Shown: positions 25,661 through 63,760 of the stretch, one piece after another
Layout of the letters: each line of letters opens with the position of its first letter
Numbering within the stretch: position 1 is the stretch's first letter
Virus record (IMG/VR): IMGVR_UViG_3300033148_008025
Span: 57,455 to 121,454 of that record
DNA length: 64,000 bases
Direction: 5' to 3' (one strand)
Origin: a virus
Program-made: the position numbers and the translations under genes
Notes under the pieces: model-generated
The model's database searches: none
Seen by the model: the letters and a program-made list of their open reading frames with translations, nothing else
Told to the model about the DNA's origin: nothing

Positions 25661-27703
25661 ATGGCAAGCACGCAATCAGGATCTTTGGATCGACGTCGGG
25701 GAACGGTATATCCATCACCGTTCTTTGATATCGCCCAGACATATATGCCGCCAACCGTGAAAGAACTTTTCCGGTGGTGTGCATATTTCTTTTACAAAGA
25801 TCCAATGATCGGCTCGGTGGTCACGAAGATCGCCGAGTACCCTGTTACGGACTTTGTCTACAACGCAAGCCAAAAACATGTTCGCGACGGGTGGAAAGAA
25901 ATCCTCGAAGACACGCTGAACATGAAACCGTTCCTCATAGAGGTCGGGCTAGACTACTTCGCATACGGCAATGCATTCATCAGTATCAACCTCCCATTTA
26001 CACGATGGATCCAGTGTCCCAGTTGTTCGAGTCTTTACAAACTGGAAGATGAATCCTTCAAGTTCTCGTTCAAAAATTTCGAGTTTCACTTCGAGTGCAA
26101 GGACTGTAAATCCAACGTAGTTGGGAAGATCGTCGACAATCCAATAAGAGATCGCACTGGAATCAATTTCGTCCGGTGGGACCCCAAGAACATAGACATT
26201 CACTACAATCCTATTACTGGAAAGTCTAAGTACCGGTACCAGATTCCAAACAAGATCAAGAAGGCAATCCACAAGGGTAGCCGTGAAATACTGGTCGACA
26301 TCCCAGAGATTTTCTTCATCGCGCTCAAGAAGAAAAGGGACATACAGCTATCAGACCAGAACCTTTTTCACTTCAAGCGTCCAACGCTCGCAGAGCAAGA
26401 CATGGGATGGGGGAAGCCACTAATCATCCATTCGATGGGAAGGATGTTCTACCTCTACGTTCTCAGAAGGGCTCAAGAGGCTATTGCCTTGCAACGCATA
26501 ATGCCAATGGAATTCATCTTCCCGCAGGCAAATGCTCAGCAAGACCCATATCAGCACGTAAATTTATCCTCTTGGCAGGGAAACATAGAGAACGAAATTC
26601 ACAAATGGAGGCAGGACCCCAATTACATCTCAATCGTTTCTGTTCCGCTCGGCTTTGAACGTCTTGGCGGTGATGGCAGAGCGCTTCTTCTTGGGCCTGA
26701 GATTGAAGTCACGAACAAGGAGATCACGGGTGGAATGGGAGTTCCGTTAGAATTCGTATTCGGAGGGCTGTCTTGGTCCGGATCCAGTGTTTCGCTACGA
26801 ACACTGGAAAACCACTTCCTGATGTATCGCCGACTTCTTCTTCGATTTGTAAACTGGTCAAAAAATCGAATCAGGCTGTACCTTGGACTTCCCGATATCG
26901 ACATTGGATTCACAGAATTCAAGATGGCTGATGACGTTCAGCGAAAACAAATTGTCATCCAGCTTAACGCTGCCAATAAAATCTCAGACCATACCATGCT
27001 CACAGAACTTGGATTTGATTACGACGATGAGCAGGAGATGATAGAGAAAGAGACCGATCAGCGAAACCAGATTCAGGCGATGACGATGAAGGCTCAGGCA
27101 GAAGCACAGGGTGAGTCATCCATCGTCTCCGCAAAGTATCAGGCAAGAGCGCAGGAAACTTTCCAGGAAGCACAGGGGGCGATCTCTGGCGGGCAACCTG
27201 GGCAAACAGAGCAAGCGCAGGCGCAGGTATCAGAAGGCCAGGAGCAGAACCCTGAAGAGGGCGGAGGGCAGCCTCGGCAACAACAAGGCGAACAACAACA
27301 GCCTCAGGACGGGCAACAGCAGATAACGCAAATCCCAACTTCTGCACAAGGAATCGGAAAGTCCGAGGATCAGTCCATGGCTGCACAAGCCGCTGCACAG
27401 GGTGCTGCACAGGGCCAGGCTGCCGTCGAGGGACAGGCTGGCACTCAAGCTGGCGGGACTTCTACGGACGTCAAAGACGCCGCGGGGCAGGCAAAGGAGT
27501 GGGCCAACATAATCGCCAAGAAGCCACCAGAGGAGCAGGCAAAGATTCTCGCAGAAATGGACAGAAAGTTGCCAGCCATGACAAGGCTGGTGAAACAACT
27601 TCTTGCGCAAATGGCTCCCGGAGAGACCTCGGGAGATGCCGCAAAGAAAATGAAGCCCCTTCCACAGAAGGCCCCACCCAGGCGTAACCAGGGGGTCATC
27701 TAA
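25661..27703 (+). CDS. Portal protein with inserted zinc ribbon, 680 aa
   Basis: The central body has portal features: a helical stem region and EITGGMGVPLEFVFGGLSWSG, SLRTLENHFLMYRRLLLRFV, as in SPP1-type portals of large phages. Position upstream of structural genes and length (portals are 450-700 aa) agree. A zinc-ribbon-like insertion lies at residues 119-149 (C119, C122, C146, C149). From about residue 475 the chain is very Gln/Ala/Gly-rich (QQQGEQQQPQDGQQQ), probably the disordered interior tail. The portal forms the dodecameric DNA channel at one capsid vertex. The stop overlaps the next ATG (TAATG). Confidence 0.75.
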   Translation: MASTQSGSLDRRRGTVYPSPFFDIAQTYMPPTVKELFRWCAYFFYKDPMIGSVVTKIAEYPVTDFVYNASQKHVRDGWKEILEDTLNMKPFLIEVGLDYFAYGNAFISINLPFTRWIQCPSCSSLYKLEDESFKFSFKNFEFHFECKDCKSNVVGKIVDNPIRDRTGINFVRWDPKNIDIHYNPITGKSKYRYQIPNKIKKAIHKGSREILVDIPEIFFIALKKKRDIQLSDQNLFHFKRPTLAEQDMGWGKPLIIHSMGRMFYLYVLRRAQEAIALQRIMPMEFIFPQANAQQDPYQHVNLSSWQGNIENEIHKWRQDPNYISIVSVPLGFERLGGDGRALLLGPEIEVTNKEITGGMGVPLEFVFGGLSWSGSSVSLRTLENHFLMYRRLLLRFVNWSKNRIRLYLGLPDIDIGFTEFKMADDVQRKQIVIQLNAANKISDHTMLTELGFDYDDEQEMIEKETDQRNQIQAMTMKAQAEAQGESSIVSAKYQARAQETFQEAQGAISGGQPGQTEQAQAQVSEGQEQNPEEGGGQPRQQQGEQQQPQDGQQQITQIPTSAQGIGKSEDQSMAAQAAAQGAAQGQAAVEGQAGTQAGGTSTDVKDAAGQAKEWANIIAKKPPEEQAKILAEMDRKLPAMTRLVKQLLAQMAPGETSGDAAKKMKPLPQKAPPRRNQGVI

Positions 27704-49929: not shown

Positions 49930-50442
49930 TTGGCTCTTCGGGCTATAGCCGATCCAGTCACCAGGATCATTCAGCTATTGGATGCTCCTGTCGGTGGGCT
50001 GTCTGATATCAGTGTCCCTTACGACCTGTATAGTAGGCTCAAGGATGATTGGCACTCTACCCCAAATCTAAGAAAGCTTCACTTCTGCTTCAGCACGGAA
50101 GGTGGTACGACGGTAACTCCAGTCAAGAAGTCTGGAGCCTATTTCTTTCTGCGCAACGATCTGGGGTGGAGGCTTCGACCATACGATGCCAACCAAGAGT
50201 TAACGATCGACGGAATGCTTTACCCCTCGGACATTTCAATTCCGATGATCTTAACTCCTGCAGGCAGAACTATCATCATCTTCAACGAGCGCTCCAACCT
50301 TGCTCAGAGCGTGCAGGCTGAAACGGATTCGGCTGCAGTTGCAAACGCTGTCAGAGCTGAGCTTGCTCCAGAGCTCGCAGACATTGCAGTCACAGTCGAC
50401 CACGCCAGGGCTGCAAACGCTCAGACGAAAATAATTCCCTAG
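49930..50442 (+). CDS. Conserved phage structural protein, 170 aa
   Basis: TTG start with AAGGAG upstream. The central section matches a widespread phage structural layout: VPYDLYSRLKDDW, a beta stretch ending SGAYFFLRNDLGWRLRPYDA, NQELTIDGMLYPSD, and TIIIFNERSNLAQSVQ, followed by a C-terminal helix. Such proteins lie among tail or neck genes. I cannot give the family name. The stop overlaps that of the opposing gene (CTAG). Confidence 0.6.
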   Translation: MALRAIADPVTRIIQLLDAPVGGLSDISVPYDLYSRLKDDWHSTPNLRKLHFCFSTEGGTTVTPVKKSGAYFFLRNDLGWRLRPYDANQELTIDGMLYPSDISIPMILTPAGRTIIIFNERSNLAQSVQAETDSAAVANAVRAELAPELADIAVTVDHARAANAQTKIIP

Positions 50443-50849
50443 CGCTTATTGCTTTTCTCTTCGATTTTGTCGAACAGTGCTCTGGTGAGAGAGCCAGTTA
50501 GCGCACCCTGTGTTCCAAGGCCTGCAAGCTCAGACTTGGTTGTCAGCGGATCTTTCTTGGACAGGAGGCTGATAGATTTCGTCCCCTTCGGTCGGGCTAC
50601 ATTTTTGATGACCCTTGTCATCCCACGTCCGCTCAGCACTGCAGCGGGGATTGCCATGGCACCGAGAAGACTTGAAGCAAGGTAGTTCCTCTTCCTCTTT
50701 CGCCGTGCTTCTGGAATTTTGCGAATGATGCTGTCGGCACTATTCTCAGCCTTCATCTTGATTTTTGCAGACTCGAGAACGTCGTTAGACCCACTCGATG
50801 CACTCAGTTTTGTAAGCTCATCCGCGAAGCCTGACATCATTGGAGTCAT
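50439..50849 (-). CDS. Motif-bearing head-type protein on the minus strand, 136 aa
   Basis: The N-terminus MTPMMSGFADELTKLSAS carries the shared FADELTK motif. The remainder is basic and helical (IRKIPEARRKRKRNYLASS), with an Ala/Gly-rich hydrophobic segment (LGAMAIPAAVLSG). The ribosome site is weak and the exact ATG is uncertain. It stands on the opposite strand from the other motif proteins. Confidence 0.55.
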   Translation of the reverse strand: MTPMMSGFADELTKLSASSGSNDVLESAKIKMKAENSADSIIRKIPEARRKRKRNYLASSLLGAMAIPAAVLSGRGMTRVIKNVARPKGTKSISLLSKKDPLTTKSELAGLGTQGALTGSLTRALFDKIEEKSNKR

Positions 50850-50871
50850 TGCTTCAGTCTAACCGATGACT

Positions 50872-50911
50872 AAAAAAAAGAAAACTACGCCAGGGGATTG
50901 CTCCCCCGGCG
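50872..50911 (-). terminator. Intrinsic terminator of the minus-strand gene at 50917
   Basis: Read on the minus strand: CGCCGGGGG, loop AGCAAT, CCCCTGGCG (one mismatch) at 50911-50888, then a T-rich run opposite the plus-strand A-tract at 50872-50884. It directly follows the stop at 50917. Confidence 0.75.
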
Positions 50912-50916
50912 CAAGA

Positions 50917-51339
50917 CTAGATCATATTTGCGACTTTCAATTTGAGCAGCACCACAAGGTTTTCGACCTCCTCAACTCTGTTAAATGCCGTCATGGATTC
51001 CGCATCAAAACGATGATGGGCCTTTTTCCTGACGACATCTAGTCCCATCAACTCGCCGAGCTCAACTTCTGCCATTGCGGCTATGGCGCCTGCCAAGGCC
51101 TTTCTTGCTGCCTCGGCTTGGTTGGTTGCTAGCTCGACAATTCCTGTAATCGCAGTGCAGCGACCACGGATTACTCCAAGGTCAACATTCTCAATCTTGA
51201 TTCCATCTACATTCGCATTTGCAATAACCGCAATGGCATGCACTACGTCTATCTTTTTCTGGGCTTCTTCCTGAATAGAAAGCAGTTTTAAGTCTGCTTT
51301 CTCAATCTTGATACCAATACTGTCGATGACTTCTTCCAT
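50917..51339 (-). CDS. Helical hypothetical protein, 140 aa
   Basis: Start: ATG 51339 has AAGGAG six bases upstream; the longer form from 51387 lacks one. Entirely helical with regular heptads (IDSIGIKIEKADLKLLSIQE, EAARKALAGAIAAMAEVELG), likely a coiled coil. First gene of the terminator-ended minus-strand unit; unnamed. Confidence 0.55.
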   Translation of the reverse strand: MEEVIDSIGIKIEKADLKLLSIQEEAQKKIDVVHAIAVIANANVDGIKIENVDLGVIRGRCTAITGIVELATNQAEAARKALAGAIAAMAEVELGELMGLDVVRKKAHHRFDAESMTAFNRVEEVENLVVLLKLKVANMI

Positions 51340-51411
51340 CTTGGACTCCTTTGTTATGGCTAAGAAGGTTGGGGTGTCGAACCCCATACCCGTCCTTTGC
51401 CTTCTTGAAGT

Positions 51412-51420
51412 CCTTATGCC
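51412..51420. repeat. CCTTATGCC box, copy 3
   Basis: Identical to copies at 30094 and 38153. It overlaps the stop of the gene at 51414-52097 and lies 72 bp upstream of the start at 51339 on the minus strand. Confidence 0.4.
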
Positions 51421-52097
51421 TTATTACGCCACGAGACCTTTATCTCAAGTGGGTGTGCAATAATCCCTTGCCCATTCACCCCCTCTGCAAATAAATCCAT
51501 CAGCCCAATGAAGGCTTCCTCGGCCTTGGCTGCATCGGACCAGCTTGCGCCAAATGCAATCATATTTTCGTCCATGAAGAATGGGTCACCATTCCGACTT
51601 GCTTCCAGAAGAACAGGTGCCTTTAGGTGCCATCGCTTGAATTGCTTGCTGCCACCCCAGTAGTCGATAACTTTGAAAGCTGGTCCAATCGGAGTTTCCC
51701 CACTGGTAGCAATCTTGCCATCTTCTACGGCATACCCCATTGCTCGCATCCTCTCTATGTCAATGCCCTTGCTGGCGCCCATGACAACGGAAGCCAGTGC
51801 TCCGCCGGATGGAACTATAGACCTGTCAAACACTAGGTGAACAACTGTCTCAAGAGGCCTGTCTGGAACAGTACGCAAGAGCCCGTCCACTTCCCGTGCG
51901 GCCTTCATACCAAGGATTGCCGGCTGGGGCGGGGAAGCTTCTATCTGCGCCGCAGAGGCTGTCAGCTGCTTCCAAATGGATGTCTGGTCATACTTCGCCG
52001 TGGACAGCTCTACCGGAGGCTCAGTTCTTTGCACTGGTTCTCCACTTGCGACCAAATGCGCGCTAATATCACTTCCACAGTTCGGACAGAATTTCAT
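51414..52097 (-). CDS. Zinc-ribbon-start hypothetical protein, 227 aa
   Basis: Start: ATG 52097 preceded by AAGGAG; a longer frame to 52205 has no ribosome site and would run into the divergent promoter region. It begins MKFCPNCGSDIS, half of a zinc ribbon (a CxxC pair only), then a Pro/Glu-rich linker and a mixed alpha/beta domain (LVFDRSIVPSGGALASVVMG, AFKVIDYWGGSKQFKRWHLK). Unnamed. Confidence 0.5.
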   Translation of the reverse strand: MKFCPNCGSDISAHLVASGEPVQRTEPPVELSTAKYDQTSIWKQLTASAAQIEASPPQPAILGMKAAREVDGLLRTVPDRPLETVVHLVFDRSIVPSGGALASVVMGASKGIDIERMRAMGYAVEDGKIATSGETPIGPAFKVIDYWGGSKQFKRWHLKAPVLLEASRNGDPFFMDENMIAFGASWSDAAKAEEAFIGLMDLFAEGVNGQGIIAHPLEIKVSWRNKA

Positions 52098-52190
52098 ACA
52101 AGTTTCTCCTTCAGGTGTATTTCCGCTCGCTTGACCTGATTTTTGATAGCTTATACCTTCAAGTAGAACACTTGGAAGCAGGGAACCAAC
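52098..52190. promoter_or_regulatory. Divergent regulatory region before the head module
   Basis: Contains TTGACC (52131-52136), a 16-base spacer and ATACCTTCAAGTA (52153-52165), nearly the same box as at 22073-22085. It would drive the plus-strand head module from 52191. Confidence 0.45.
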
Positions 52191-53144
52191 ATGAGTACAA
52201 ACCATTTTGCCTTCGTCACATCTGATTCAGCACCCGGACAAACGAAGGTGGCCGCTGATCGGCTGGAGCTCCTTGGACAAATTGCAGCAAAGCACTATCT
52301 CGAAGATCGGGTACCACTCAACACCTCCATCAAAAAGATGGCACAGGAAAACGATTTGAATCACAACCAGATTCAAAGGATCTGCGAGATGGCAAACATC
52401 TCAACACATAAGGGGCTTTGGGCCAAAACCGCACAAAAAGAGAGTGTCGCCTTCGACCTGGCCGATGCCAGAAACATTGCAACAGTTTCTCCAAGCCCAA
52501 GCAAGGACGAAGATGAGAGCGAGTGTGGGTGTTCCTCGGCATCATCTCCATCGTCCGTAGACTCAGATTACATGGCACCACCGAAAGGGATCCCACTTCC
52601 TGGCCCATCGATAATGTCAATGATGGGCGCAGATCCATCTAAGGTTCACAACGGACTGAGTTCCGAGCCTGAGTCGAAGAAAATCATCATCATTCTTCAA
52701 AAGAAAGCGAGTGAAAGAAAAACTCTTGCAGACTCAATCCTCTACAAAGGGATGGAACTAGAAACACTTGAGAAAAAAGCCTATCAAACTGTAAAGCAAA
52801 CAGTTCTCGGCGGATCATCTTTTTCACAAGTATTCAAGGCAGCAGTAGGAGCGGGACTTGGCAAGATTGCCAATGAGAAATTACCGGAATATCAGGACAG
52901 ACTTATAGAAGAAACACACGGCGAGACTCGTAATCGCCTTGTGAAGTGTGCGATCCACAAGGCGCCGGAAGATTTGATTAGCTCCAACCTGGGCAACATG
53001 GTGGTCATCAACGGAGCCCACCCAGTGATAGTTTCTCTGGATACGGTTCAGAGGAAAACCGGCGAAATCAAAAATGGAATCAGCAACCTTCTTCGCATCG
53101 ACGATGAAGTGAAGATTTACCAACAGCGTCTAAGGGAGCTGTAG
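52191..53144 (+). CDS. First head-module protein, 317 aa
   Basis: The N-terminal 70 residues contain a possible DNA-binding helix pair (LNTSIKKMAQENDLNHNQIQ, RICEMANISTHKG). A Ser/Asp-rich disordered stretch follows (about 95-130). The C-terminal half is alpha/beta (AVGAGLGKIANEKLPEYQDR, LGNMVVINGAHPVIVSL). It opens the head operon after the divergent region. The protein could be a DNA-associated internal protein. The stop overlaps the next GTG. Confidence 0.55.
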   Translation: MSTNHFAFVTSDSAPGQTKVAADRLELLGQIAAKHYLEDRVPLNTSIKKMAQENDLNHNQIQRICEMANISTHKGLWAKTAQKESVAFDLADARNIATVSPSPSKDEDESECGCSSASSPSSVDSDYMAPPKGIPLPGPSIMSMMGADPSKVHNGLSSEPESKKIIIILQKKASERKTLADSILYKGMELETLEKKAYQTVKQTVLGGSSFSQVFKAAVGAGLGKIANEKLPEYQDRLIEETHGETRNRLVKCAIHKAPEDLISSNLGNMVVINGAHPVIVSLDTVQRKTGEIKNGISNLLRIDDEVKIYQQRLREL

Positions 53145-53497
53145 TGAATAACGTACTAAACGGATTCGCCTCTGAACTAACCAAGGTTGCCCTAGCCAAA
53201 GGGCTTGGAAGGGTTGGTAAGTTCATGATGAAACACCCTGTAGCTGGAATCATGGTTCCAATAATTGGAGCCACATCTATTGCAGCGGGAACGCAGGCGT
53301 ATAAAAGTGGGAAATCTGGGGGGCGAGGGCGCTATCTGAAAGCGTCACCTCGAGGGGCTAGCAAGTCTGCATACACCAACTACCACGGGCTTATGAAGCA
53401 CAGGGCTTCCAAAAAAGACATCAAAAAAATTACAGGGAAATATCGGGAAAGCGCATTTTCACGACGTGGCCCCTCTTCCAAATCTAAGAAAGCATAG
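53144..53497 (+). CDS. Motif-bearing basic membrane-active-type protein, 117 aa
   Basis: GTG start overlapping the previous stop. Begins MNNVLNGFASELTKVALAKG, the shared motif. A hydrophobic stretch (VAGIMVPIIGATSIAAG, about 38-54) is followed by a very basic Gly/Lys/Arg C-terminus. The combination suggests an internal head protein that contacts membrane or DNA during ejection; this is inference. Confidence 0.55.
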   Translation: MNNVLNGFASELTKVALAKGLGRVGKFMMKHPVAGIMVPIIGATSIAAGTQAYKSGKSGGRGRYLKASPRGASKSAYTNYHGLMKHRASKKDIKKITGKYRESAFSRRGPSSKSKKA

Positions 53498-53499
53498 TC

Positions 53500-54207
53500 A
53501 TGAATTCACTCCACCTTCTTGTCGAATGTCACCGCCGCGGATACCTATCAAAGGAAGCTGCAGACAGCGTTGCCGAAGTTCGCGAGCGACTGATCATGGG
53601 CGCCCTAAAGAAAGAGGCAAAGGAATTTGTCGAGGCGCTTTCCTCGCGCGAGTTTGACAAAGAAGCATCTTCTATTGGATCTTCTATTGGATCTAAAATC
53701 GTATCTAAATACAGGTCGGCCAAGAGCGGGATTGAAGGATTGGCAACCAGCGACGGACTCTGGGAAAGGTCTGTCCGAAACCTTGCACTTCTAACGGGAA
53801 TGGGAGCAGCTGTTGGGGCAGGTGGCGCTGGTGTAGATGCATTTCTGTCACATCGGAAGGATACCCAGACTAGGAAGAGGATTGAGAGGTCCTATCCTCA
53901 AATGTTCAAGCTTGAGCCAGATTTGAACGAACATGACAAGTCCACAATCAGTCGGAACTTTCAGGTTCTAGCAACATACGCTCCTTCCATTGCAGCAAAT
54001 CCTGTCGTTGCTGCAACATGGTCTCTCGAAAAAGCCATTCGTGGACGAATTGAGCCACTTGAAATCAAGAGCCTTGCTGAAACACAGACAGCGATCGACA
54101 GGGCATCAGAGCGTGAACACTTCATTGCTACGCCGGCAGCTAGGAACATCATGGGCATAGCGACATCGTCGCTCGGCAAGATTGAACCTCTCAAGGATGC
54201 AATCTAG
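53500..54207 (+). CDS. Head-module protein with hydrophobic helix, 235 aa
   Basis: Starts 2 bp after the previous stop. Helical, with KxA-type motifs early (LSKEAADS, FDKEASSIG) and a direct SSIGSSIGS repeat near residue 55. A hydrophobic stretch (ALLTGMGAAVGAGGAGVDAF, about 98-117) could span a membrane. C-terminal half: VLATYAPSIAANPVVAATW. Unnamed. Confidence 0.55.
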   Translation: MNSLHLLVECHRRGYLSKEAADSVAEVRERLIMGALKKEAKEFVEALSSREFDKEASSIGSSIGSKIVSKYRSAKSGIEGLATSDGLWERSVRNLALLTGMGAAVGAGGAGVDAFLSHRKDTQTRKRIERSYPQMFKLEPDLNEHDKSTISRNFQVLATYAPSIAANPVVAATWSLEKAIRGRIEPLEIKSLAETQTAIDRASEREHFIATPAARNIMGIATSSLGKIEPLKDAI

Positions 54208-54216
54208 GAACGCACG

Positions 54217-55662
54217 GTGGCAAGAGACCCTCTTAGCTTCTTCGTAAATGAGAAGGTGGCGAGCCTGAGTGCGCCTGAGACGCCTGTTGATGAGTTTCAT
54301 CGTATCCCGGCTCGTCCCTCCGACCAGAGTATTGATCCCGGAGAACGTGCCCTAGCTGGCCTTGCCGCTGTAACAGGATCGCTCATTTCCAAGATTGTCC
54401 CATGGGCCACCGAGATTGCTGTCAGCAATCAATTCTCGAAAGGAGAGAAAGCTTTTCCGCGTCCTGGGGGGATTGGTCCCGTATCAACTATTGGTGAATT
54501 CCTAACCCAAGATTCTGCCCCACCCAAGTCGAGAATAATGGGCTTGTTCGATGTTACCGGACGATCACCCAGCAAGGAGGAATGGCATTCGACAGGAATG
54601 ACCAGCCAGCGAATCAATTTTGGACACAGGTTGAAGGAAATTGAGGACATCGCAGACTCCTTTATCGACAAACACAGGTTGAAAGAAAAAGGGGTGAAAC
54701 TACATTTTCGGCAAGGACCGATAAGTGGAACGGTTACAGGATCGTATTCTCCTTCCACCAAAAAAGTACACATTCCATACACCGGAAAAGAGGCAGTACT
54801 TCATGAGCTCGGGCATGCAGCCGACTACACAACGAGGATTGGAAAAATTCGCTCACACGTAGGGCCCGCCATCAAAAAGAGTGTTCTCGTTGCCTTGCCG
54901 ATCGCACTAGCCGCAGGTGACCAAGTTAAAGAAATAATCCCTGGAACAATAGATGATAGGGCCATCGAGTTCATGCAGGACAATGCTCCAGCAATCATGG
55001 GGGCGACGCTTGCTGCAACTGTTATTTATCCAGAAGCAAAAGCAACCATGCTTGCAGTAAGGCATGTTGCCGAGAAAGAAGGCCCAATCGCTGCTAGGGC
55101 TATGATGAAAAAACTCGGCCCAGCGTTGGGAAGCTATGTCATCGGGGCCATACCGGCAATCATAGGAATGTCACTTGCACGCAAATATATGCGTGAAGCC
55201 CGGGAAGAGAAGGCTGAGCTCATCGACGAAATTGAAAAAATTGGTTCAGTCGTAGATGTATTCGTCCATCACGGCAAGGACATCTCACACGTTGCTAAGG
55301 GCATCGCAAGAGGCACTGCTGAGCTCATGTCAAAACCTGGAACAATGAAAAACATCGCCAGGGCGGCCAAGGAAGTAGGTACTTCCCCGGAGTTTGTACA
55401 TGGTGCGATAGTGAGTGCTGTTCCCGCGGCCCTTGGTGCCCTCTATATGTACGGAACTCCTAGCGGTGATATTGCACGAAAGAGAATGCACAAAAGACAG
55501 ATCCAGAAGCTTCCGCACAGCATGGTTGGTAATCAGACGATGGCAACTGAGAGCTGGAGAGAAGAGCACCCGCTGCGATTTGCTGGAATTGTAGCTCTGG
55601 GCACAGCCATGGCTGGGGGAATCATGACGAAATTCATAAGAGACTTGGCTCCGATCCTATGA
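54217..55662 (+). CDS. HExxH metallopeptidase-like protein with membrane helices, 481 aa
   Basis: GTG start. Zinc-peptidase motif HELGHA at 196-201 (H196, E197, H200), in EAVLHELGHAADYTT, preceded by a beta region (ISGTVTGSYSPSTKKVHIPY). The following 250 residues hold several hydrophobic helices (SVLVALPIALAAGD, NAPAIMGATLAATVIY, LGSYVIGAIPAIIGMSL, VSAVPAALGALYMYG). The N-terminus SFFVNEKVASLSA resembles the head-protein motifs. A peptidase with membrane segments inside the head module could act on the host envelope. The stop overlaps the next ATG (ATGA). Confidence 0.6.
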   Translation: MARDPLSFFVNEKVASLSAPETPVDEFHRIPARPSDQSIDPGERALAGLAAVTGSLISKIVPWATEIAVSNQFSKGEKAFPRPGGIGPVSTIGEFLTQDSAPPKSRIMGLFDVTGRSPSKEEWHSTGMTSQRINFGHRLKEIEDIADSFIDKHRLKEKGVKLHFRQGPISGTVTGSYSPSTKKVHIPYTGKEAVLHELGHAADYTTRIGKIRSHVGPAIKKSVLVALPIALAAGDQVKEIIPGTIDDRAIEFMQDNAPAIMGATLAATVIYPEAKATMLAVRHVAEKEGPIAARAMMKKLGPALGSYVIGAIPAIIGMSLARKYMREAREEKAELIDEIEKIGSVVDVFVHHGKDISHVAKGIARGTAELMSKPGTMKNIARAAKEVGTSPEFVHGAIVSAVPAALGALYMYGTPSGDIARKRMHKRQIQKLPHSMVGNQTMATESWREEHPLRFAGIVALGTAMAGGIMTKFIRDLAPIL

Positions 55663-56477
55663 CCAAAGTTCGCGGCATAGCCCTAGTTGGGGGATGGACG
55701 CCAGAGGAGAAGAAGGTAATTCCCGAAATCCTGGGTCCCATGCCAGACGCCTGGCTCAAGGACAACCCGTTCATTTCTCGCATCATACGAAAACCCACTC
55801 TTCTCAATGCGCCCAAAACGGCGCCAGGCCATTCAAAGTATGAACCGCAGAACAGGTCAATTGTCGTATTCGACAAGGGCGTGTATCATGACGGAAAGAT
55901 AGACCTGGAGCAGTTTCGGCGCTCTGTCTGCCACGAGCTGGCACATGCAATCCTTGAACTACACCCAAAACTCCTGTCAAAGTGGACTATCGCCACAAAG
56001 AACGACGACTACGTTGATGACTACGCAAAGACCAGCCCAGAAGAAGATTTCGCCGACACCTTTTCTGAATTCTTCATTGATCCAAAAAAAACACGTAGTG
56101 TTGTCCCAAGGAAGGCAAACTTCGTGCAAAAGCTTCTATCCCTGTCTAGGGGTGGAGAGGAAAAAATAGCCATGTTCAATATCGCATCATTCGCCGACGA
56201 GCTCACAAAGACCGCCATCTCCGGATCTGCCCTGAAGGACATGCTGTCGAAAGCTGTTCGTTCTCCCGCAACAAAGGGCGTAGGCCTCGCAGGAGCAGGA
56301 GCAGGAGGCGGTGCCATCGTCGGTCATGAGATGGGCGAAGGAACGGGACTCAAGCAGGGGCGCAAGAATGTTCGGACGGTTGCCGTGCAAGCACGCAAGA
56401 TTGGACGCAGGGAAGGTGTCATGATGTATCATCAAGCTCTGCAGAAGTCACTGCGCTCTCGAGGGCAACAACGATAG
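55659..56477 (+). CDS. HExxH metallopeptidase-like protein fused to a FADELTK-motif domain, 272 aa
   Basis: Residues about 1-140 form a small zinc-peptidase-like domain: HELAHA at 92-97 (H92, E93, H96) and a downstream SPEEDFADTFSEFF segment where the third ligand would sit. From residue 172 a second part begins MFNIASFADELTKTAISG with a Gly/Ala-rich stretch and a basic C-terminus. A ribosome-site-like GGAGAGG lies 11 bases before the ATG at 56172, so the second part may also be made on its own. It is the second of two adjacent HExxH proteins. Confidence 0.6.
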   Translation: MTKVRGIALVGGWTPEEKKVIPEILGPMPDAWLKDNPFISRIIRKPTLLNAPKTAPGHSKYEPQNRSIVVFDKGVYHDGKIDLEQFRRSVCHELAHAILELHPKLLSKWTIATKNDDYVDDYAKTSPEEDFADTFSEFFIDPKKTRSVVPRKANFVQKLLSLSRGGEEKIAMFNIASFADELTKTAISGSALKDMLSKAVRSPATKGVGLAGAGAGGGAIVGHEMGEGTGLKQGRKNVRTVAVQARKIGRREGVMMYHQALQKSLRSRGQQR

Positions 56478-56490
56478 ACGGGAAACTCCC

Positions 56491-57342
56491 ATGGTGAAAA
56501 AAAACGCATCAGGCCTCTTCTTCGAAAAGAGAGCTCAGTCAAGTTCTGGGAAATTCTTTAGCCAGATGCCAGGGCGTGAAACTGGTGAATTTTTCGGCAA
56601 ACAGGCAACGACCGCGTTGCCACAGCCATCACCCACAACACCGTCAAAGCCACCGGTTGACAAGATCAACATCGGAGCAACAGGTGGTCCTACTGGCGGC
56701 CAAGGATACCGCGGAGAGGGCATGAGTGGAGGGATGTATGGGTGTGGAACTGGAGAAAAGACAGCCTCTAGAACCCCGAATGAATGGTCTCACGAAACAG
56801 ATCTTCCTAACGGCTTCCATCGTCCCGCAAAAGATCAACCAGAAGACCTCGAGGCTGGCGGCGAAAGATTCTTCGATTCAGAAGTGGAAGGTCCAAGCTA
56901 TCGATCATCAGATGGAATGCGCCATGGGGTCAAAGAAGGAGGAAGCATGCACATGCGTCCTGGCTCTGGACATCAGATAGGCAAGCATGCATCGCAAGCC
57001 CCTCGGTTCCTGGGGACGTCATTCGCCAAAGAAGCTGGTTATGGGTCAGAATTCAAGTCAAGCCTGGGCAAAGCCAAGGATGAATTCGTGTCCAGCCTGG
57101 GCAAAGCAAAAGAAGAAGCCGGCGAAGAAGCATCTGGCGCACTGCACTCTATAACCAAGAGTCCTCTTGCGGCAGCTGCAATTACCGGACTAGCCGGTGC
57201 GGCTTTGCTCCGCGGAGGCAGGAGGGGTTACAAAACCCTCAAGGGTGCAATCAAAAAAACTCCTGCAAAAAAAGCCCCGGAGTCGCTAAAAGACAAAGCA
57301 AGAAGTAAAGTCCAGGAACTCGTTGGCAAAATCACTCAATAA
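56491..57342 (+). CDS. Gly/Ser-rich head-module protein, 283 aa
   Basis: Starts MVKKNASGLFFEKRAQ; three FFxKxA-like elements appear early (LFFEKRAQ, EFFGKQAT, TSFAKEAG near 175). The middle is Gly/Pro/Ser-rich and disordered. Residues 190-235 contain two copies of SSLGKAK (SSLGKAKDEFVSSLGKAKEE). A hydrophobic helix (PLAAAAITGLAGAALLRGG) and a basic C-terminus follow. Probably an internal head protein. Unnamed. Confidence 0.55.
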   Translation: MVKKNASGLFFEKRAQSSSGKFFSQMPGRETGEFFGKQATTALPQPSPTTPSKPPVDKINIGATGGPTGGQGYRGEGMSGGMYGCGTGEKTASRTPNEWSHETDLPNGFHRPAKDQPEDLEAGGERFFDSEVEGPSYRSSDGMRHGVKEGGSMHMRPGSGHQIGKHASQAPRFLGTSFAKEAGYGSEFKSSLGKAKDEFVSSLGKAKEEAGEEASGALHSITKSPLAAAAITGLAGAALLRGGRRGYKTLKGAIKKTPAKKAPESLKDKARSKVQELVGKITQ

Positions 57343-57356
57343 CCAGGAACACAAAA

Positions 57357-57725
57357 ATGGAAAATCTTACTGACGTATACCAACAAATCGCAGCTGCAGA
57401 TGCTGGGAAACTCGAGAAGCAAGCTGCGGTGATCAAAGTAGCCGAAGAGGAAGATGCTGCCGGCCGCATCATGGCTCGTGGCTTTGCCGACGAACTGACC
57501 AAAATTGCCGGCGACGACGCAGGATACGGACAAGATCCGTCGATGGCGAAAACAAAGCTTCCTACCCCCCCGAAGGTAGGCGGAACGGTCAAAGCTCCAG
57601 ACTTCAAAGTCGGAGGAGGAGCCACCGGTCCAGGCCCAGGTTTGGCTGGTCGACCAATTAAAGCTCCGCCTGTGAAAGCTGAGCCAGAAAAGGTCAAGCT
57701 GAAGCGTCCAGGCGGTCGCCAGTAA
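57357..57725 (+). CDS. Short head protein with tandem assembly motifs, 122 aa
   Basis: Contains the two-part module also seen at 60238 and 61005: ENLTDVYQQIAAADAGKLEK then, near residue 35, AAGRIMARGFADELTKIAGD. The rest is Pro/Gly/Lys-rich and probably disordered. It is one of three paralogs of this module in the window. Role inferred: scaffold-like or head-targeted protein. Confidence 0.6.
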   Translation: MENLTDVYQQIAAADAGKLEKQAAVIKVAEEEDAAGRIMARGFADELTKIAGDDAGYGQDPSMAKTKLPTPPKVGGTVKAPDFKVGGGATGPGPGLAGRPIKAPPVKAEPEKVKLKRPGGRQ

Positions 57726-57734
57726 ACACCTGTC

Positions 57735-58418
57735 ATGAACAACCTCCTCCAAGGCTTCGCTGACGAGTTGACCAAGGTCGGCTTCAAACTCAAAGCGAAC
57801 AAATCTACGGGCCCAGCAGGAAATGCTGGCGCCCCAAGTCCCATGGGATATGGCCGCGTTGCTGCGCCAAAACCATTGGGCTCAGGAGGAGGTCCAACCA
57901 GTGCTGGGCTAACTGGCATAGGGCGGCAGCAAATGAATTTTTCTGCAAAACAGAAAAAGCCCAAATATGTCTCCGCTGGAACCCAGAAATTTGCTCCAGC
58001 AAAACCACCCGAAGTTCAGAAAAATAAGAAGGGTGGGGGGCGGAGAAAGCGGGGGGCAAAAAAAGACCTCGGACCAGCGTGGGAAACCGGAGCACAGCGA
58101 CTGAATAGGAGAGTAGGCGAACAGCGAAGTGCCACGAAGGCAAAGGGGAGGACCGATTCTGAGTGGTTTCAAAAGCAAACACCCAAAGCCGGCGGCAAGC
58201 CAACAGTAAAGTCAACGTCGGACCAAGCCCGATATAGTAAGTTGAAGGCAAAGGGCAATACCGGCAGGTGGGCGGCTGCCCATGGAAAGCCAATACGGTC
58301 CACTGGAACAACCCTCAGTCCATCCGCAAAAGCTCGACAGGCTCGACTAAGCCAATCTGCCAACAAGGCAAGGGCTATCGTCACGAAGCCGAACCTAAAA
58401 GGACTCATGAGACAGTAG
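57735..58418 (+). CDS. Highly basic head protein with FADELTK motif, 227 aa
   Basis: Starts MNNLLQGFADELTKVGFK. The remaining 200 residues are dominated by Lys, Arg, Gly, Ala, Pro and Ser with almost no acidic residues (RRKRGAKK, KAKGRTDSEWFQKQT), low-complexity and disordered. A DNA-condensing or internal packaging protein is a reasonable inference. The protease gene follows at once: its ATG is the codon directly after this stop. Confidence 0.55.
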   Translation: MNNLLQGFADELTKVGFKLKANKSTGPAGNAGAPSPMGYGRVAAPKPLGSGGGPTSAGLTGIGRQQMNFSAKQKKPKYVSAGTQKFAPAKPPEVQKNKKGGGRRKRGAKKDLGPAWETGAQRLNRRVGEQRSATKAKGRTDSEWFQKQTPKAGGKPTVKSTSDQARYSKLKAKGNTGRWAAAHGKPIRSTGTTLSPSAKARQARLSQSANKARAIVTKPNLKGLMRQ

Positions 58419-60236
58419 ATGTACAAGCTTCTAACATTCTCCGGATACGACAATCGAACCGGACCTCACATCTTTCCGATTGAGGCAGATGTCGATAAAA
58501 GCATTGGGCATATCAAAATGGCCCGAGAGCTTCCTGCGTCAATCGAGCAGTACATTCGAAATTCAAAACCCGTAAAAGGGAAGACACAGCTACTCATCGA
58601 TGCGATGGGGGCAGGCGAATTTTACGGATCAAACGTGAATGGAGACTTCTTCCCAGAAGAGGCTTTGCGTCACGAAGGTCCAGACTACGGATACAGAACA
58701 TTCATGATGTATGCGTATCCGTTTAAGCATCACGTCAACAAGGATCCTGCTCGAGCCTACGGTGACAAAGTCGTTCTTTCGTCATACGACCCGAAGATGC
58801 ATCGAGTTCTTCTTATCGTTCGTGTCGACGACGCAAAGTGCCAAGACATTCTTGGAGATCTGGACGACGGAACCTACTGGGACGTCAGCATGGGATGCCG
58901 AGTCCCATGGGACGAGTGCTCAATCTGTCACAACCGAGCAAAAAACCGAGCGGAGTACTGCACACACCTTCGCTATCAGATGAACAAGATCCTACAAGAC
59001 GGGAAAAGAGTTTTTGCATACAACCGTCTTCCAAAATTCTTCGATATCAGTTTTGTCACAATCGGCGCAGAGAAGGCATCTCACATTCTGAAAAAGGTCG
59101 CACACACAGGCCGAGCGGAAGAACTTGTCTTAAGCTCCGACGCTGGAGAGCACTATTATTCAAAGCTGGCAGACGTAGAGAAGGCTGCTGAGCAAAGCAA
59201 GCGAGCGGAAATCGAAAAAGAAGTCCCTTCCCAGCCAGCGGCGAACATCCAACCAGCAACACCGGCTGACAAGGCAAAGGTGGAAGGTTTTCTCGGCGCT
59301 GCTGGCGCACTGAAGTCCTGCGAACGTCCGATCCCGAATCAGACTCTAGATCGGATGGCACAACACCCGATGAGGGATATCTTCACAACGCTTGCAACGC
59401 TTGGAGTCGACCTGCGACCCAATGAATTCCAACGAATCGTTCTCATGAAGCAGGGTGCCGCTAAGCTGGCCAGCGCACTTGAACAACACAGGCTTGTTTT
59501 TGATGAAACGAAACCAGCGACATCTATCCCCAAATGGGCAATGGATTTCAAAAAAATAAATCATGGCGCTATCAATGAAAAGGTAGCGATGATCATCCAG
59601 CCATGGCTCAAAGAGCGGTCCTGCTATCCAGACATTCTCCAAAAAAGAATCGGTCGAATGGAGAAGCAAGCAGAGCTTGATTTCAAGTACGACAGCGATA
59701 GCCAGTGGCATCCGATGACCGATGACCAAAAGCGTGAAGCATCTGGAATGCACGGGTTAGTGCCCGCAAGCGCAGCTTTAGCTGCAGGCTTCATGGTTTT
59801 CAGAAAGATTTTTCCTGGGCTACAGACTACTGGCCCAGCGCCAATCCGCGCCATAGCAAAACACCCATGGCTCCTTCCCATGCTGATTGGGGCCGGCGTT
59901 GGGGCATCTGTTGGGATGCAAACAATGAACGCTCCCATGCCTCTAACAAAAGAGGGAGGTGTTGCTAGACTTGACGCTAAAAAAGTAGGGGCCTACCATG
60001 GTGCCAATGGCGCAAGTGAAAACACATCAAGTCCACTCCATCATGGGATGATCACACTTGCCTATGTCTACTCTAATACCACCCAGAACAAGCAACGCGG
60101 ACAATACGATCAGCTGATCACTCAACGACCTGAGCTTGCAAAACTAAGCAAAGTTGCAAACCATCAAACTCGCCACTCATCGCAAGATGTAAAAATTGCT
60201 GATTCAATTCGGCGAACAGAAAGCAAAAGGAAATAA
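58419..60236 (+). CDS. Prohead protease-like protein (S78-like) with long C-terminal extension, 605 aa
   Basis: The first 215 residues resemble HK97-type prohead serine proteases: GSNVNGDFFPEEAL, the candidate catalytic His in FKHHVNKDPARAYG (H104 or H105) and the candidate catalytic Ser in DVSMGCRVPWDE (S157), with a C-x2-C plus C pattern around 164-180. It is placed before scaffold, decoration and capsid genes as expected. The family is usually about 200 aa, so the remaining 390 residues are extra: KxA motifs (LKKVAH, EKVAMI, EKQAEL) and two hydrophobic helices (SAALAAGFMVFRKIF, LLPMLIGAGVGASVGMQT). The extension may be scaffold-like and self-cleaved. Confidence 0.7.
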   Translation: MYKLLTFSGYDNRTGPHIFPIEADVDKSIGHIKMARELPASIEQYIRNSKPVKGKTQLLIDAMGAGEFYGSNVNGDFFPEEALRHEGPDYGYRTFMMYAYPFKHHVNKDPARAYGDKVVLSSYDPKMHRVLLIVRVDDAKCQDILGDLDDGTYWDVSMGCRVPWDECSICHNRAKNRAEYCTHLRYQMNKILQDGKRVFAYNRLPKFFDISFVTIGAEKASHILKKVAHTGRAEELVLSSDAGEHYYSKLADVEKAAEQSKRAEIEKEVPSQPAANIQPATPADKAKVEGFLGAAGALKSCERPIPNQTLDRMAQHPMRDIFTTLATLGVDLRPNEFQRIVLMKQGAAKLASALEQHRLVFDETKPATSIPKWAMDFKKINHGAINEKVAMIIQPWLKERSCYPDILQKRIGRMEKQAELDFKYDSDSQWHPMTDDQKREASGMHGLVPASAALAAGFMVFRKIFPGLQTTGPAPIRAIAKHPWLLPMLIGAGVGASVGMQTMNAPMPLTKEGGVARLDAKKVGAYHGANGASENTSSPLHHGMITLAYVYSNTTQNKQRGQYDQLITQRPELAKLSKVANHQTRHSSQDVKIADSIRRTESKRK

Positions 60237-60237
60237 C

Positions 60238-60957
60238 ATGCCCTCTCTCGACGACCTCATGAGCAAATTTGCATCAGACGAATCAGCTACAGAAAATTTC
60301 GCAGTCCCCGGCGACGCCGTTGTCCCGGATTTTAACCCCGTCGACGACGGACAACTCAAGACAGCCTCTGAAGGAAACCAGGAAATGCGCTCACTCACCG
60401 ACATCTATATGGCAATCGCTGACAACGACCTCGAGAAGCAAGCTGCTGCTGCTGCTCATATCCCCGAAGAAAACTACGACGATGTAGACTTCGCAAAGAT
60501 CGCAGGTGATCTTGCTTCCGCCGAAGCAGCCGATCTTGCAATCCAGGATGAGCATAGCGGCGATGGTGCGGACATGGTCAAAGTTGCAGCAGAGTACGAC
60601 TCTGCCGGCCGCATCATGGCTCGTGGCTTTTATGATGAGTTCATGAAGCTTGCTGGTGCAATGGATACTGACGTATCCTCAAATCAGATGACGGAATCAC
60701 CATCCGCTTCATCTACCCCAGCCTTCGGTGACCGAGGACTGCCAACTGTTCCTACGAACTTTGCTGGCAACGAAGCCCACGATGGTCAAATCGAAACAGC
60801 AGGCCAAGCTGGTAAGCAGGTTTACAGCGACGTGCTCAAGCCAAGCAAAAGCATCTCTGCTGGCCAGGGAACCGGGGACGACCCCGAAGCTGCAGCAGTT
60901 AGCCTTGGTGGCGGTTCTCCCGCAGGATTCGCAACTGTGAAAGACCTTACGGCCTAG
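60238..60957 (+). CDS. Scaffold-like protein with tandem assembly motifs, 239 aa
   Basis: Start: ATG 60238 with AAAAGGAA, one base after the protease stop; the frame extends upstream to 60196 without a ribosome site. Acidic, with KxA motifs. Contains MRSLTDIYMAIADNDLEKQA (about 50-68), then SAGRIMARGFYDEFMKLAGA (about 122-141), the same two-part module as at 57357 and 61005. Position between protease and decoration/capsid genes suits a scaffold. The stop lies in a hairpin. Confidence 0.65.
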   Translation: MPSLDDLMSKFASDESATENFAVPGDAVVPDFNPVDDGQLKTASEGNQEMRSLTDIYMAIADNDLEKQAAAAAHIPEENYDDVDFAKIAGDLASAEAADLAIQDEHSGDGADMVKVAAEYDSAGRIMARGFYDEFMKLAGAMDTDVSSNQMTESPSASSTPAFGDRGLPTVPTNFAGNEAHDGQIETAGQAGKQVYSDVLKPSKSISAGQGTGDDPEAAAVSLGGGSPAGFATVKDLTA

Positions 60958-60968
60958 GCTGTAAGGTC
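60943..60968 (+). terminator. Stop-codon-spanning hairpin
   Basis: GACCTTACGGC (60943-60953), loop CTAG, GCTGTAAGGTC (60958-60968): an 11-bp stem with one G-T wobble that contains the stop codon of the scaffold-like gene. No T-run follows, so it may be an attenuator, RNA stabiliser or processing site rather than a terminator. Confidence 0.5.
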
Positions 60969-61004
60969 TCTCATTCATCGCAAACCCCCAAAAGGAGAAC
61001 TGAC

Positions 61005-61424
61005 ATGGATTCACTGAAATCTGTATACAACGCCATCACAGAGCAAGACTTCGAGAAAGCTGCTCAGGCTGAGGTTGTTGAGCATTACGGCCAATCATTC
61101 GCAGAGGCCGACCCCGAAATGCTCAAGCAAGCTGCTGACTACGACTACATCGGACGCATTGTTGCCCACAATGTTTTCTCCGATCTCATCAAAGAAGCAA
61201 TGGATGAGGCTATGCCTGATGCTTCCGAAGACGAGAAGAAGAAGGAAGCCGATAAAGTCATCGCAAAAGCAAAGGGCGAAGCCCCTGCTGAAGATGAAAA
61301 AAAGGACAAGAAGGACGAAAAAGAGGAGGAGTCTGAGAAGACTGCTGCTTATCGTCAAGCCGTCCTTGAGCGAATGTACTCAGATCCTGGGTATGTTCAG
61401 GCGCTCATCGCCAAGCATTACTAG
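61005..61424 (+). CDS. Scaffold-like protein with tandem assembly motifs, 139 aa
   Basis: AAAGGAGAA precedes the ATG. Two-part module: MDSLKSVYNAITEQDFEKAA at the start, then YDYIGRIVAHNVFSDLIKEA (about 46-65). A strongly acidic and lysine-rich tail follows (EDEKKDKKDEKEEE, about 97-112), typical of scaffolds. Third paralog of the module with 57357 and 60238. Confidence 0.6.
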   Translation: MDSLKSVYNAITEQDFEKAAQAEVVEHYGQSFAEADPEMLKQAADYDYIGRIVAHNVFSDLIKEAMDEAMPDASEDEKKKEADKVIAKAKGEAPAEDEKKDKKDEKEEESEKTAAYRQAVLERMYSDPGYVQALIAKHY

Positions 61425-61447: not shown

Positions 61448-61888
61448 ATGATGGGTTATTCTCTTGATGAGCTTCTTGATGCCACCGGCATTAACGAGCT
61501 CGACGGATCACAACTGCGAAAAACCGCTGCTTCCAGTGAGCAGTGTGATTTTTCAAAACTTGCCGAACGCTGCCGGGAGGCAGCTGATGCAACTCCTTCT
61601 GAAGTTGAGCAATCAGACCACAGGGAGCTTGTTGAAAAAACTGCAGCCATTGCCGTCATCGAGAAAACCCTCTCAGAGATTGGCTCTATTGTGGGTGCTC
61701 CACTCCAGAAGACTGCTGCCGCCAGAAAAACAGGTTTTGGCCGGGCAGCGTTCATCAAATCGGCGCTTGAAGCTGGGCACGACCCGGAGAACATTGCAAA
61801 GTTCCTAGAGAAGAAAAAAAAGGACGAGGAAGAGGAGGAAGAAGAAAAGGCTTCTAAGAAGAAGACTTCCTCCTCGATCGTTTCCTAG
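61448..61888 (+). CDS. Head-module protein with KxA repeats and acidic tail, 146 aa
   Basis: Begins MMGYSLDELLDATGINELDG (a second ATG follows). Repeated KTA-type elements occur (LRKTAASS, VEKTAAIA, LQKTAAAR, FIKSALEAG). The C-terminus is Lys/Glu-rich (KKKKDEEEEEEEKASKKK). A scaffold or head-completion role is inferred from the context. It ends just before a T-rich stretch. Confidence 0.55.
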   Translation: MMGYSLDELLDATGINELDGSQLRKTAASSEQCDFSKLAERCREAADATPSEVEQSDHRELVEKTAAIAVIEKTLSEIGSIVGAPLQKTAAARKTGFGRAAFIKSALEAGHDPENIAKFLEKKKKDEEEEEEEKASKKKTSSSIVS

Positions 61889-61966: not shown

Positions 61967-62284
61967 ATGTCTAACAAAACCACAAAAAGTGCAAGCCAAC
62001 ACGGTGAGCTTTTAAAGGAAGCCGCTGCTGCACTCGATGTTGCGCAAAAACGTGACGATGCCGTCAAGCTCGCATTCGAGATGGTCGAACGCGGAAAAAT
62101 CCCAACATTCCAAGACCACAGTCAGTTCATGGATAAAGTTGCAGAACTGATGTCCAAAGACCTGAGAGTGGTTGAAGAAGCCCTTGAAATGGATTCCTCC
62201 ATGGCCGATTTTGGCAAGGTTGCGTCCGAAGGTGGGACTCCCACCGATGCCCATTCGACCTTCTTTCACAATTTGGCCGACTAA
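61967..62284 (+). CDS. Small head protein, 105 aa
   Basis: Start: ATG 61967; an upstream TTG at 61925 is the promoter-like TTGACG and not a likely start. Helical (EAAAALDVAQKRDDAVKLAF, DKVAELMSKDLRVVEEALEM), with a SSMADFGKVASEGG element near residue 86 that resembles the shared head motif. Located directly before the decoration protein. Confidence 0.55.
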   Translation: MSNKTTKSASQHGELLKEAAAALDVAQKRDDAVKLAFEMVERGKIPTFQDHSQFMDKVAELMSKDLRVVEEALEMDSSMADFGKVASEGGTPTDAHSTFFHNLAD

Positions 62285-62866: not shown

Positions 62867-63760
62867 ATGGAACAAATCGACGCAGGTACCTTCAACAATC
62901 TCTTCATCACAAAGCTCGACACGGCCGATGGCCTCGAGAAAGCTGCCCAAGCCGGCGGTGCTTTCGTTCGCGAGCGTTTGCGAGAAGTCTCATTTGCTCG
63001 CAGCATCGTGCCCCCCGAGTATCTCACCAAGGCCGACTGCCAGCGCTCTGTCAATCATGACACGCTGGTCAAAATCGTGGACATCGAGCCGCAGTCCAGT
63101 GCTGCTGCTGTCAACTTCCGCGGAAAAGCCTACGAGCGATACATCGAGGGTGATCGCTACGAGATCCCATTCTTCAAGATTGAATCAGAGAAGTTCAAGA
63201 AGAATGAGGCTGAGCTCTTGGCCTACGACTTCCCCGTCACCAAGGTGATTGAGGAGAACTCGGTCAAGGACATCCAGAAGATCGAGGACGGAAAGTTCAT
63301 CGAGTTCACGGACGCAGTCATCGCTGCCAACGGCAAAGACATTGCCCCTGCTGCTGCAGGTCCAGCAACGTCTGAGAATCTTGTGAGGCTATTCAAGGCT
63401 CTTGATACTGACGAACTTGCCGTCGGTACCATCTTGATGCACAAGTCCGACTGGGACGACTTCATGACCCAGGACGGTGCCGTCATCGGTTCACCACTGG
63501 CTTCGGAAATCCTGGTCAACGGCTACAAGTACAACACCATTCTTGGTCACAAACTTGTCGTCACCATCAAGTCGTCCATTGTTCCCCCAGGAACGATGTA
63601 TGTCTTCACGGACCCCAAGTATCTCGGAAACTTCTACATCCTCAACGATACGAAGTTCTACATCGAGAAGCGCGGCGACATGGTCAGCTGGCAGACTTGG
63701 GAGTACATCGGAATGGGATACGGAAACCTCCGTGCCTGCGCCAAGATGACTCTTACCTAG
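62867..63760 (+). CDS. Major capsid protein, HK97-fold type, 297 aa
   Basis: AGGAGA precedes the ATG. The order of elements fits a HK97-fold capsid protein of large phages: an N-terminal helix (GTFNNLFITKLDTADGLEKA), the SIVPPEYLTKADCQRSVNHD block, an E-loop-like YIEGDRYEIPFFKIESEKFK, spine helix NSVKDIQKIEDGKFIEF, then SLASEILVNGY-type and DPKYLGNFYILNDTK segments in the A domain. The N-terminus has EKAAQAGG, a possible processing site. It forms the icosahedral shell around the scaffold. Confidence 0.85.
   Translation: MEQIDAGTFNNLFITKLDTADGLEKAAQAGGAFVRERLREVSFARSIVPPEYLTKADCQRSVNHDTLVKIVDIEPQSSAAAVNFRGKAYERYIEGDRYEIPFFKIESEKFKKNEAELLAYDFPVTKVIEENSVKDIQKIEDGKFIEFTDAVIAANGKDIAPAAAGPATSENLVRLFKALDTDELAVGTILMHKSDWDDFMTQDGAVIGSPLASEILVNGYKYNTILGHKLVVTIKSSIVPPGTMYVFTDPKYLGNFYILNDTKFYIEKRGDMVSWQTWEYIGMGYGNLRACAKMTLT

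Follow-up and report, generated by a model that had tools for sequence, protein, structure and literature searches.

A shared N-terminal peptide as a candidate capsid-targeting propeptide in a clade of large phages

Results

The tag and the genes that carry it

The stretch of DNA analyzed here (the window, 64,000 nucleotides) covers bases 57455–121454 of the 121,454-base virus record IMGVR_UViG_3300033148_008025 (G000 below); coordinates refer to the window unless stated otherwise. For the whole record, 142 proteins were predicted by our own open reading frame (ORF) calls, whose starts may be off by a few codons. The head module encodes a predicted prohead protease (58419–60236, plus strand) and the major capsid protein (62867–63760, plus strand), and a short peptide of the type FADELTK, termed the tag below, recurs among its proteins. 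The tag is probably a capsid-targeting propeptide with a code of its own that is cut by the phage's prohead protease, where packaging and cleavage are deduced from sequence and modeling.

A reading of the window made from the letters alone (the sequence-only reading) had listed eight sites of the motif, and all eight are present. A six-frame scan of the window found the motif at seven places only, each within a plausible ORF; the eighth listed site, NVFSDLIKEA in the ORF at 61005, is a variant without the E. In four ORFs the motif is N-terminal, with the F at residue 6–8, and the other four copies are internal. The N-terminal copies are FADELTKLS, residues 8–16 of a 136-residue ORF (50439–50849, minus strand; tag at 50802–50828), with tagged orthologues in the related genomes G001, G003, G005 and G006; FASELTKVA in a 117-residue ORF (53144–53497, plus strand; tag at 53165–53191), with tagged orthologues in G001, G002, G005 and G006; FADELTKVG in a basic 227-residue ORF (57735–58418, plus strand; tag at 57756–57782); and MNMVSFVDELIRVG in a 100-residue ORF of the tail module (10739–11041, plus strand; tag at 10754–10780). 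The last had been set apart as an outlier; the site is confirmed and is probably real, because a tagged orthologue carrying MNLLSFVDELVKVG exists in G003 (E 5e-8). The intact tag in the form of a reporter peptide is MNNLLQGFADELTKVG.

The internal copies lie at residue 178 of the ORF at 55659–56477, residue 43 of that at 57357, residue 131 of that at 60238 and residue 58 of that at 61005. The copy in 55659–56477 (FADELTKTA, 56190–56216, plus strand) directly follows an EKIA site, as EEKIA-MFNIASFADELTKTA, and is preceded by an HExxH metalloprotease-like domain. This arrangement of EKxA, methionine and tag recurs in G001, G002, G003, G005 and G006, which would fit a fusion of two proteins or the use of an internal start. 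The copy GRIMARGFADELTKIA (57483–57509, plus strand) lies in a small scaffold-like ORF (57357–57725).

Four more N-terminally tagged genes were found upstream of the window, at G000 33792, 35030, 37126 and 47891. The motif, taken before as a feature of the head module, is present there but is not confined to it. The first three of these four genes follow one another on the plus strand amid minus-strand genes (G000:C1:33792-37806, L038) and form a possible cargo operon.

The 142 predicted proteins contain the pattern FxDE[L/F]xK 10 times, compared with 0.067 expected from 2000 residue shuffles (maximum 2), and seven times within the first 30 residues, compared with 0.011 expected. The copies in the record differ at most synonymous codon positions, so they are not recent DNA duplicates, an origin that is thereby ruled out, and the peptide has been kept by selection at the protein level.

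Distribution and consensus across the clade

The capsid protein and the protease of the window have relatives in Salmonella phage Arash and Vibrio phages D69, D148 and D181, and more distantly in Bacillus phage G. A related capsid protein (42–93% identity) is encoded at 33 IMG/VR loci, and 14 further contigs of relatives were read for tagged proteins. Links to organisms in the genome collection are limited to contigs of metagenome-assembled genomes labeled Acidobacteriota, Deltaproteobacteria and others; the sole hint of a host is a contig binned as Acidobacteriota (L313, JAUWSP010000021.1), whose capsid protein is 90% identical to that of the window.

IMG/VR was scanned for DNA encoding FxDELxKIA, with a reversed-codon pattern as control. 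The scan returned at least 120 stretches, in which F, D, E, L, K, I and A are fixed by the selection. The pattern occurs at 132 sites or more; among the matches listed, 84 of 132 lie within 25 codons of a start, compared with 4 of 76 for the control. When these are pooled with the gene calls, the number of unique tagged proteins is at least 128; without their tags, these group into 87 clusters, of which 65 have a single member. A joint alignment of 83 tagged proteins has hardly any conserved columns apart from the initial methionine and five tag residues, F, D, E, L and K. In the 14 further contigs of relatives, too, many proteins start with this peptide.

Among the pooled proteins the F is mostly residue 8–10 and is preceded by A, G or S in 94%, and the D, E, L and K hardly vary (the IMG/VR subset having been selected on these residues). 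In 46 tags collected without selection on the end, the conserved residues are F (45), E (46), L (42) and K (43), and the last residue is A in 27, G in 13 and S in 6. The second residue varies freely (F[AVITSGFYLC]DE), and the overall consensus is M-x(3-9)-[A/G/S]-F-x-D-E-L-x-K-[I/L/V/T]-[A/G/S]. Two features would be expected of a capsid-targeting sequence (CTS) of the T4 type. The first, a short N-terminal peptide shared by otherwise unrelated proteins, is present; as to the second, an end in a protease site, the tag ends in the LxKxA core described below, a predicted site, yet about 40% of the unforced tags end in G or S.

The LxKxA core motif

In a residue-pair statistic made without prior choice of a motif, K-x-A heads the list of over-represented pairs for the head module studied here (70 versus 42) and also for the structural genes of Arash (46 versus 21) and D69 (56 versus 26), and it ranks second in those of phage G (61 versus 34). 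Masking the tag copies leaves 37 occurrences of [LIFMV]xKxA in the head module, compared with 9.2 for shuffled sequences. No enrichment is seen there for the reversed motif, for versions with K changed to R or E, or for xxKxA, and only a weak one for xKxxA; the shuffles and these motif variants rule out an artifact of composition. In each of the 14 genomes tested, the 13 kb preceding the capsid gene show a 3.2- to 5.3-fold enrichment of LxKxA; in genes more than 60 kb from the capsid gene, where these are available, the ratio is about 1 and there is no enrichment.

Flanking positions that were not used in the selection are also biased, with L, M or I two residues before the K, E directly before it (177 versus 50, z 18), T, V or I after it, and S directly after the A (138 versus 45, z 14); these pooled z-scores count orthologues repeatedly and overstate independence, whereas the per-genome enrichment test is unpooled. 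These flanking preferences are absent from genes distant from the head module. The core can be written as [L/M/I]-E-K-[T/V/I]-A followed by S, A or E, and the preference on both sides of one bond points to a protease site, [L/M/I]-E-K-[T/V/I]-A|S, with a predicted cut after the A. The last residues of the tag match this core. Cleavage inside FADE, at an AxE site as in phiKZ, is not favored, since the second residue of the tag is free and the variant VFSDLIKEA keeps K-x-A without that E.

In Arash, 58 annotated virion or head proteins contain 71 LxKxA sites, whereas 80 other proteins, which add up to the same length, contain 18, and such a site is N-terminal in 11 of the 58 and 2 of the 80 (p 0.002). 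The scattered "structural protein" labels of Arash suggest that virion proteomics lies behind them, the annotation stating no source.

Capsid, scaffold-like and other head proteins

The 297-residue capsid protein has one LxKxA site, GLEKAA|QAGG (residues 23–27, DNA 62933–62947), immediately before the conserved N-arm. The site is kept in all IMG/VR relatives (LEKAA, KEKIA) and occurs as LVKEA and LTKEA in Arash and D69, respectively; Ala27 is invariant in the alignment, and the site is conserved down to ~31% identity. The phage G capsid protein has no KxA site at that place.

The scaffold-like ORFs between the protease and capsid genes contain three to five LxKxA sites each. They include a protein with five sites (60238–60957, plus strand) and the conserved segment AGRIMARGFYDEFMKLA (motif DNA 60628–60654), and an acidic protein with three (61005–61424, plus strand), one of which is the variant VFSDLIKEA (61173–61199). 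Either GRIMARGF..E..K.A or GRI.AHNVFSD.IKEA is found in three of the scaffold-like proteins close to the protease, and the matching segment in distant relatives is EADFLGRVMAHAYTQELQKIA. Because this conserved segment of the proteins adjoining the protease includes an F..E[LF].K.A core, the tag resembles a scaffold segment. A scaffold-like protein was modeled with low confidence (predicted local distance difference test, pLDDT, 48) as helical over residues 110–148, motif included. A Pfam search of the scaffold-like proteins gave no match.

Further plus-strand genes with the core include two small head-module proteins, one with five sites (61451–61888, a scaffold or core candidate) and one with three (61967–62284); a 317-residue (52191–53144, six sites) and a 283-residue (56491–57342, five LxKxA-type sites) head-module protein; and, in the portal region, proteins of 383 residues (22105–23256, ten sites) and 384 residues (24485–25639, seven sites in the first 150 residues) and the probable portal protein (25805–27703, weak PHROG match), with VTKIA at residues 6–10. 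Outside the head block, 22105–23256, 24485–25639 and 39634–41826, with 10, 7 and 6 sites, are candidate protease substrates. Two adjacent head-module ORFs (54217–55662 and 55659–56477) carry the HExxH motifs HELGHAADYTT and HELAHAILELH, which are conserved in relatives; neither ORF has a Pfam or PHROG match.

The predicted prohead protease

The predicted protease has 605 residues, with a catalytic domain at about residues 45–230 and a long C-terminal region that bears LxKxA sites. A Pfam search of the ORF gave no match, and it was placed instead by PHROG, tblastn and fold. For the phage G group, a head peptidase of SH or XkdF type is expected (PMC7824862). The protease domain was modeled with AlphaFold from 17 sequences (pLDDT 73, predicted template modeling score 0.68). 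Among 998 chains, the best match of the model is T4 gp21 (PDB code 5jbl; Z 9.7, 129 residues, 3.1 Å), followed by the varicella-zoster virus protease (Z 8.7), and the herpesvirus assemblins as a group score between 6 and 8.7. With these two proteases ranked first, the model predicts a gp21/assemblin fold for the ORF and upholds its earlier assignment as a protease. Foldseek alone also ranks gp21 first, with a weak E of 0.099. His105 and Ser157, the putative catalytic residues, are invariant in 20 aligned sequences, including those of phage G, Arash and D69.

Most of these proteases have [F/L]xK[T/S/V/Q]A just before the catalytic domain (GLTKQAA in Arash, GLEKSAA in D69, GLVKTAA in phage G), and the clade of the window has HIKMA at this position. 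Within the head module, the gene precedes the capsid gene and adjoins the scaffold-like genes, and the same arrangement is found in the relatives, Arash, D69 and phage G.

Three loci encode proteases with intein-like inserts (Hint, Intein_splicing, LAGLIDADG; L013:3656-6547, L021:66-6158 and L035:3871-6723), and a prohead protease gene is an unusual place for inteins. In L020:2741-6073, L021:66-6158 and L026:3193-6531, the protease ORF has a C-terminal inorganic pyrophosphatase (InPase) domain with LxKxA sites nearby, possibly a polyprotein that brings its own cargo.

Association of the tag with the head system and nature of the tagged proteins

Among the matches listed, the protease profile was found in 40 of 48 tag-bearing contigs and in none of 45 reversed-pattern control contigs, and the capsid profile in 40 of the 48. 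In several tag contigs that have neither profile, the motif lies deep inside a protein, as for chance matches.

Recognizable domains in tagged proteins include C92 papain-like amidases (4), SNF2/ResIII helicases (2–3), GNAT, glyoxalase, MazG, NlpC/P60 and zinc peptidase. In one tagged helicase the domain match begins at residue 20, right after the tag. The tagged protein G000:35030-37129 is a candidate polyvalent protein, combining KTSC (E 9.5e-14) and InPase (E 1.3e-29) domains. Judged by their domains, the recognizable tagged proteins look like injected cargo. InPase is thus tagged in this phage and part of the protease ORF in L020, L021 and L026, and it may reach the prohead by either route, fusion to the protease or the tag.

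Discussion

Proposed function

The analysis establishes the tag, its modularity, the core motif and its placement and, by model, the fold of the protease. From these we infer packaging, cleavage, the position of the cut and injection. By way of the FxDEL helix, tagged proteins would be taken up into the scaffold core soon after synthesis, while the prohead is still growing. The tag probably mimics a scaffold packing element, because the scaffold-like proteins beside the protease carry the same segment. When the shell is complete, the prohead protease would cut at LxKxA, probably between the A and the next residue, which would break up the scaffold and trim the capsid protein after about residue 27. 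The protease would be activated at its own N-terminal site, and the cargo would be freed from its tag. The freed cargo (helicase, pyrophosphatase, amidases, acetyltransferase, peptidases) would remain in the head and be injected with the DNA. The FxDEL and LxKxA parts are best treated as separate signals. The sequence-only reading had proposed that the tag serves in capsid targeting or scaffold binding and is perhaps cut by the protease at 58419, and every computational test run points in that direction. A wider proposal, which we regard as moderately likely, is a portable loading code for the whole clade, in which effectors would be gained by means of an AFxDELxKIA start that copies the scaffold segment, and a herpesvirus-like A|S protease would both dismantle the scaffold and release the cargo.

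Several points weigh against a cleaved capsid-targeting propeptide. That only 27 of the 46 end-unselected tags end in A (13 G, 6 S) implies either that the protease accepts A, G or S, or that binding is what selection maintains in FxDEL, with cleavage of lesser importance. LxKxA sites are present in the isolated relatives Arash and D69, and the regions scanned in them contain no full FxDEL tag; most of the scattered "structural" proteins of Arash also have no N-terminal LxKxA site. Orthologues are counted repeatedly in the pooled z-scores, and the scaffold model is of low confidence. The tag and the protease share one clade with many genes in common by descent, so their co-occurrence stems partly from common ancestry and marks them as confined to the clade, without establishing a direct functional link. 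Most tagged proteins have no recognizable domain, and both their place in the virion and their cleavage are predicted from sequence.

The alternative that fares best, although we regard it as unlikely, is that the tag is a docking helix for scaffold or shell and nothing more, retained on its proteins, with LxKxA as part of the docking surface. The better conservation of F, E, L and K than of the final A in the unforced tags would fit such a helix, as would the segment inside the scaffold-like proteins, but the capsid N-terminus, the protease and many head proteins carry LxKxA with no FxDEL beside it, the strong preference for S after the A is left unexplained, and a prohead-protease fold implies that processing occurs. 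Distinctly less probable is a role as a strong protease recognition site only, on ordinary head proteins and without targeting. The tag does end in the same core as many internal sites; however, it extends far past that core (small residue-F-x-D-E) at a fixed place near the start, a shared 15-residue N-terminus is not needed for cleavage, and the tag is found on host-directed enzymes encoded far from the head genes. This last scatter beyond the head module could also suggest a different destination for the tagged proteins, such as a phage-made compartment or a host partner, with no relation to heads, which is very improbable given the concentration of the segment and core in scaffold, protease and capsid genes and the occurrence of InPase either tagged or fused to the prohead protease ORF. 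Chance resemblance, or a mere likeness of amphipathic helices in head proteins rich in K and A, can practically be dismissed, as shuffles, the reversed motif, residue swaps and changed spacing fail to reproduce the motif and the reversed-codon scan has no N-terminal excess.

Comparison with known systems

In T4, the CTS is an N-terminal peptide of 10–20 residues on the internal proteins and Alt that targets them to the prohead core and is cut off by gp21 (PMC5694885, PMC9958956); gp21 also cuts scaffold and capsid proteins and cleaves its own N-terminus (PMC9958956). The tag resembles the CTS as a short N-terminal peptide of presumed core proteins, removed, as we propose, by the prohead protease. 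It differs in its sequence (AFxDELxKIA, core LxKxA|S), in its presence on dozens of unrelated proteins across the clade, compared with a few in T4, and in its occurrence also inside scaffold-like proteins. In phage P1, the N-terminal 30 residues of DarB, an injected anti-restriction protein, direct a reporter into the capsid (PMC9024508). This N-terminal packaging signal on injected cargo, known for the DarB protein, is likened to the tag by description. By analogy, the T4 CTS and the P1 DarB signal are the most likely functional counterparts of the tag; no homology to either is claimed.

In SPN3US and phiKZ, with the protease gp245, several head proteins have N-terminal propeptides, which contain many internal cleavage sites (PMC10052503, PMC5694885). 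Those propeptides are mostly 111–254 residues long and cut after E, in contrast to the ~15–27 residues with K-x-A here. The herpesvirus assemblins share the fold of our protease by model, at a sequence identity of ~10%. Assemblin cuts its scaffold between Ala and Ser, the same bond as proposed here; neither a K two residues before the A nor a cargo tag is known in that system.

Polyvalent phage proteins have been predicted to be packaged in capsids (Iyer et al. 2017, PMC5512222), and the tagged KTSC-pyrophosphatase protein resembles them in its combination of domains. A term search of that paper found no mention of a shared packaging tag, nor did term searches of jumbo-phage and polyvalent-protein papers find such a tag. 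The strings DELEKIA, DELTKIA, DELQKIA and DELVKIA had no match in the literature searched, from which the name of Salmonella phage Arash is also absent. Capsid-targeting propeptides as a kind are known, while the code, its spread over dozens of families and the K-x-A rule for the supergroup appear to be new.

Implications

The head contents and injected proteins of large phages are mostly unmapped, and mass spectrometry is out of reach for uncultured phages. A readable tag, if the proposed function is true, would open them to sequence search, uncultured phages included. The tag predicts cargo (helicases, a pyrophosphatase polyvalent protein, amidases and uncharacterized proteins) in many environmental phages and flags candidates for anti-defense and host-takeover proteins. 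The compact pair of tag and protease is a possible tool for protein loading, a use to which the T4 CTS is already put. For the phage G/Arash supergroup, cultured phages among them, K-x-A predicts the cutting rule of the prohead protease.

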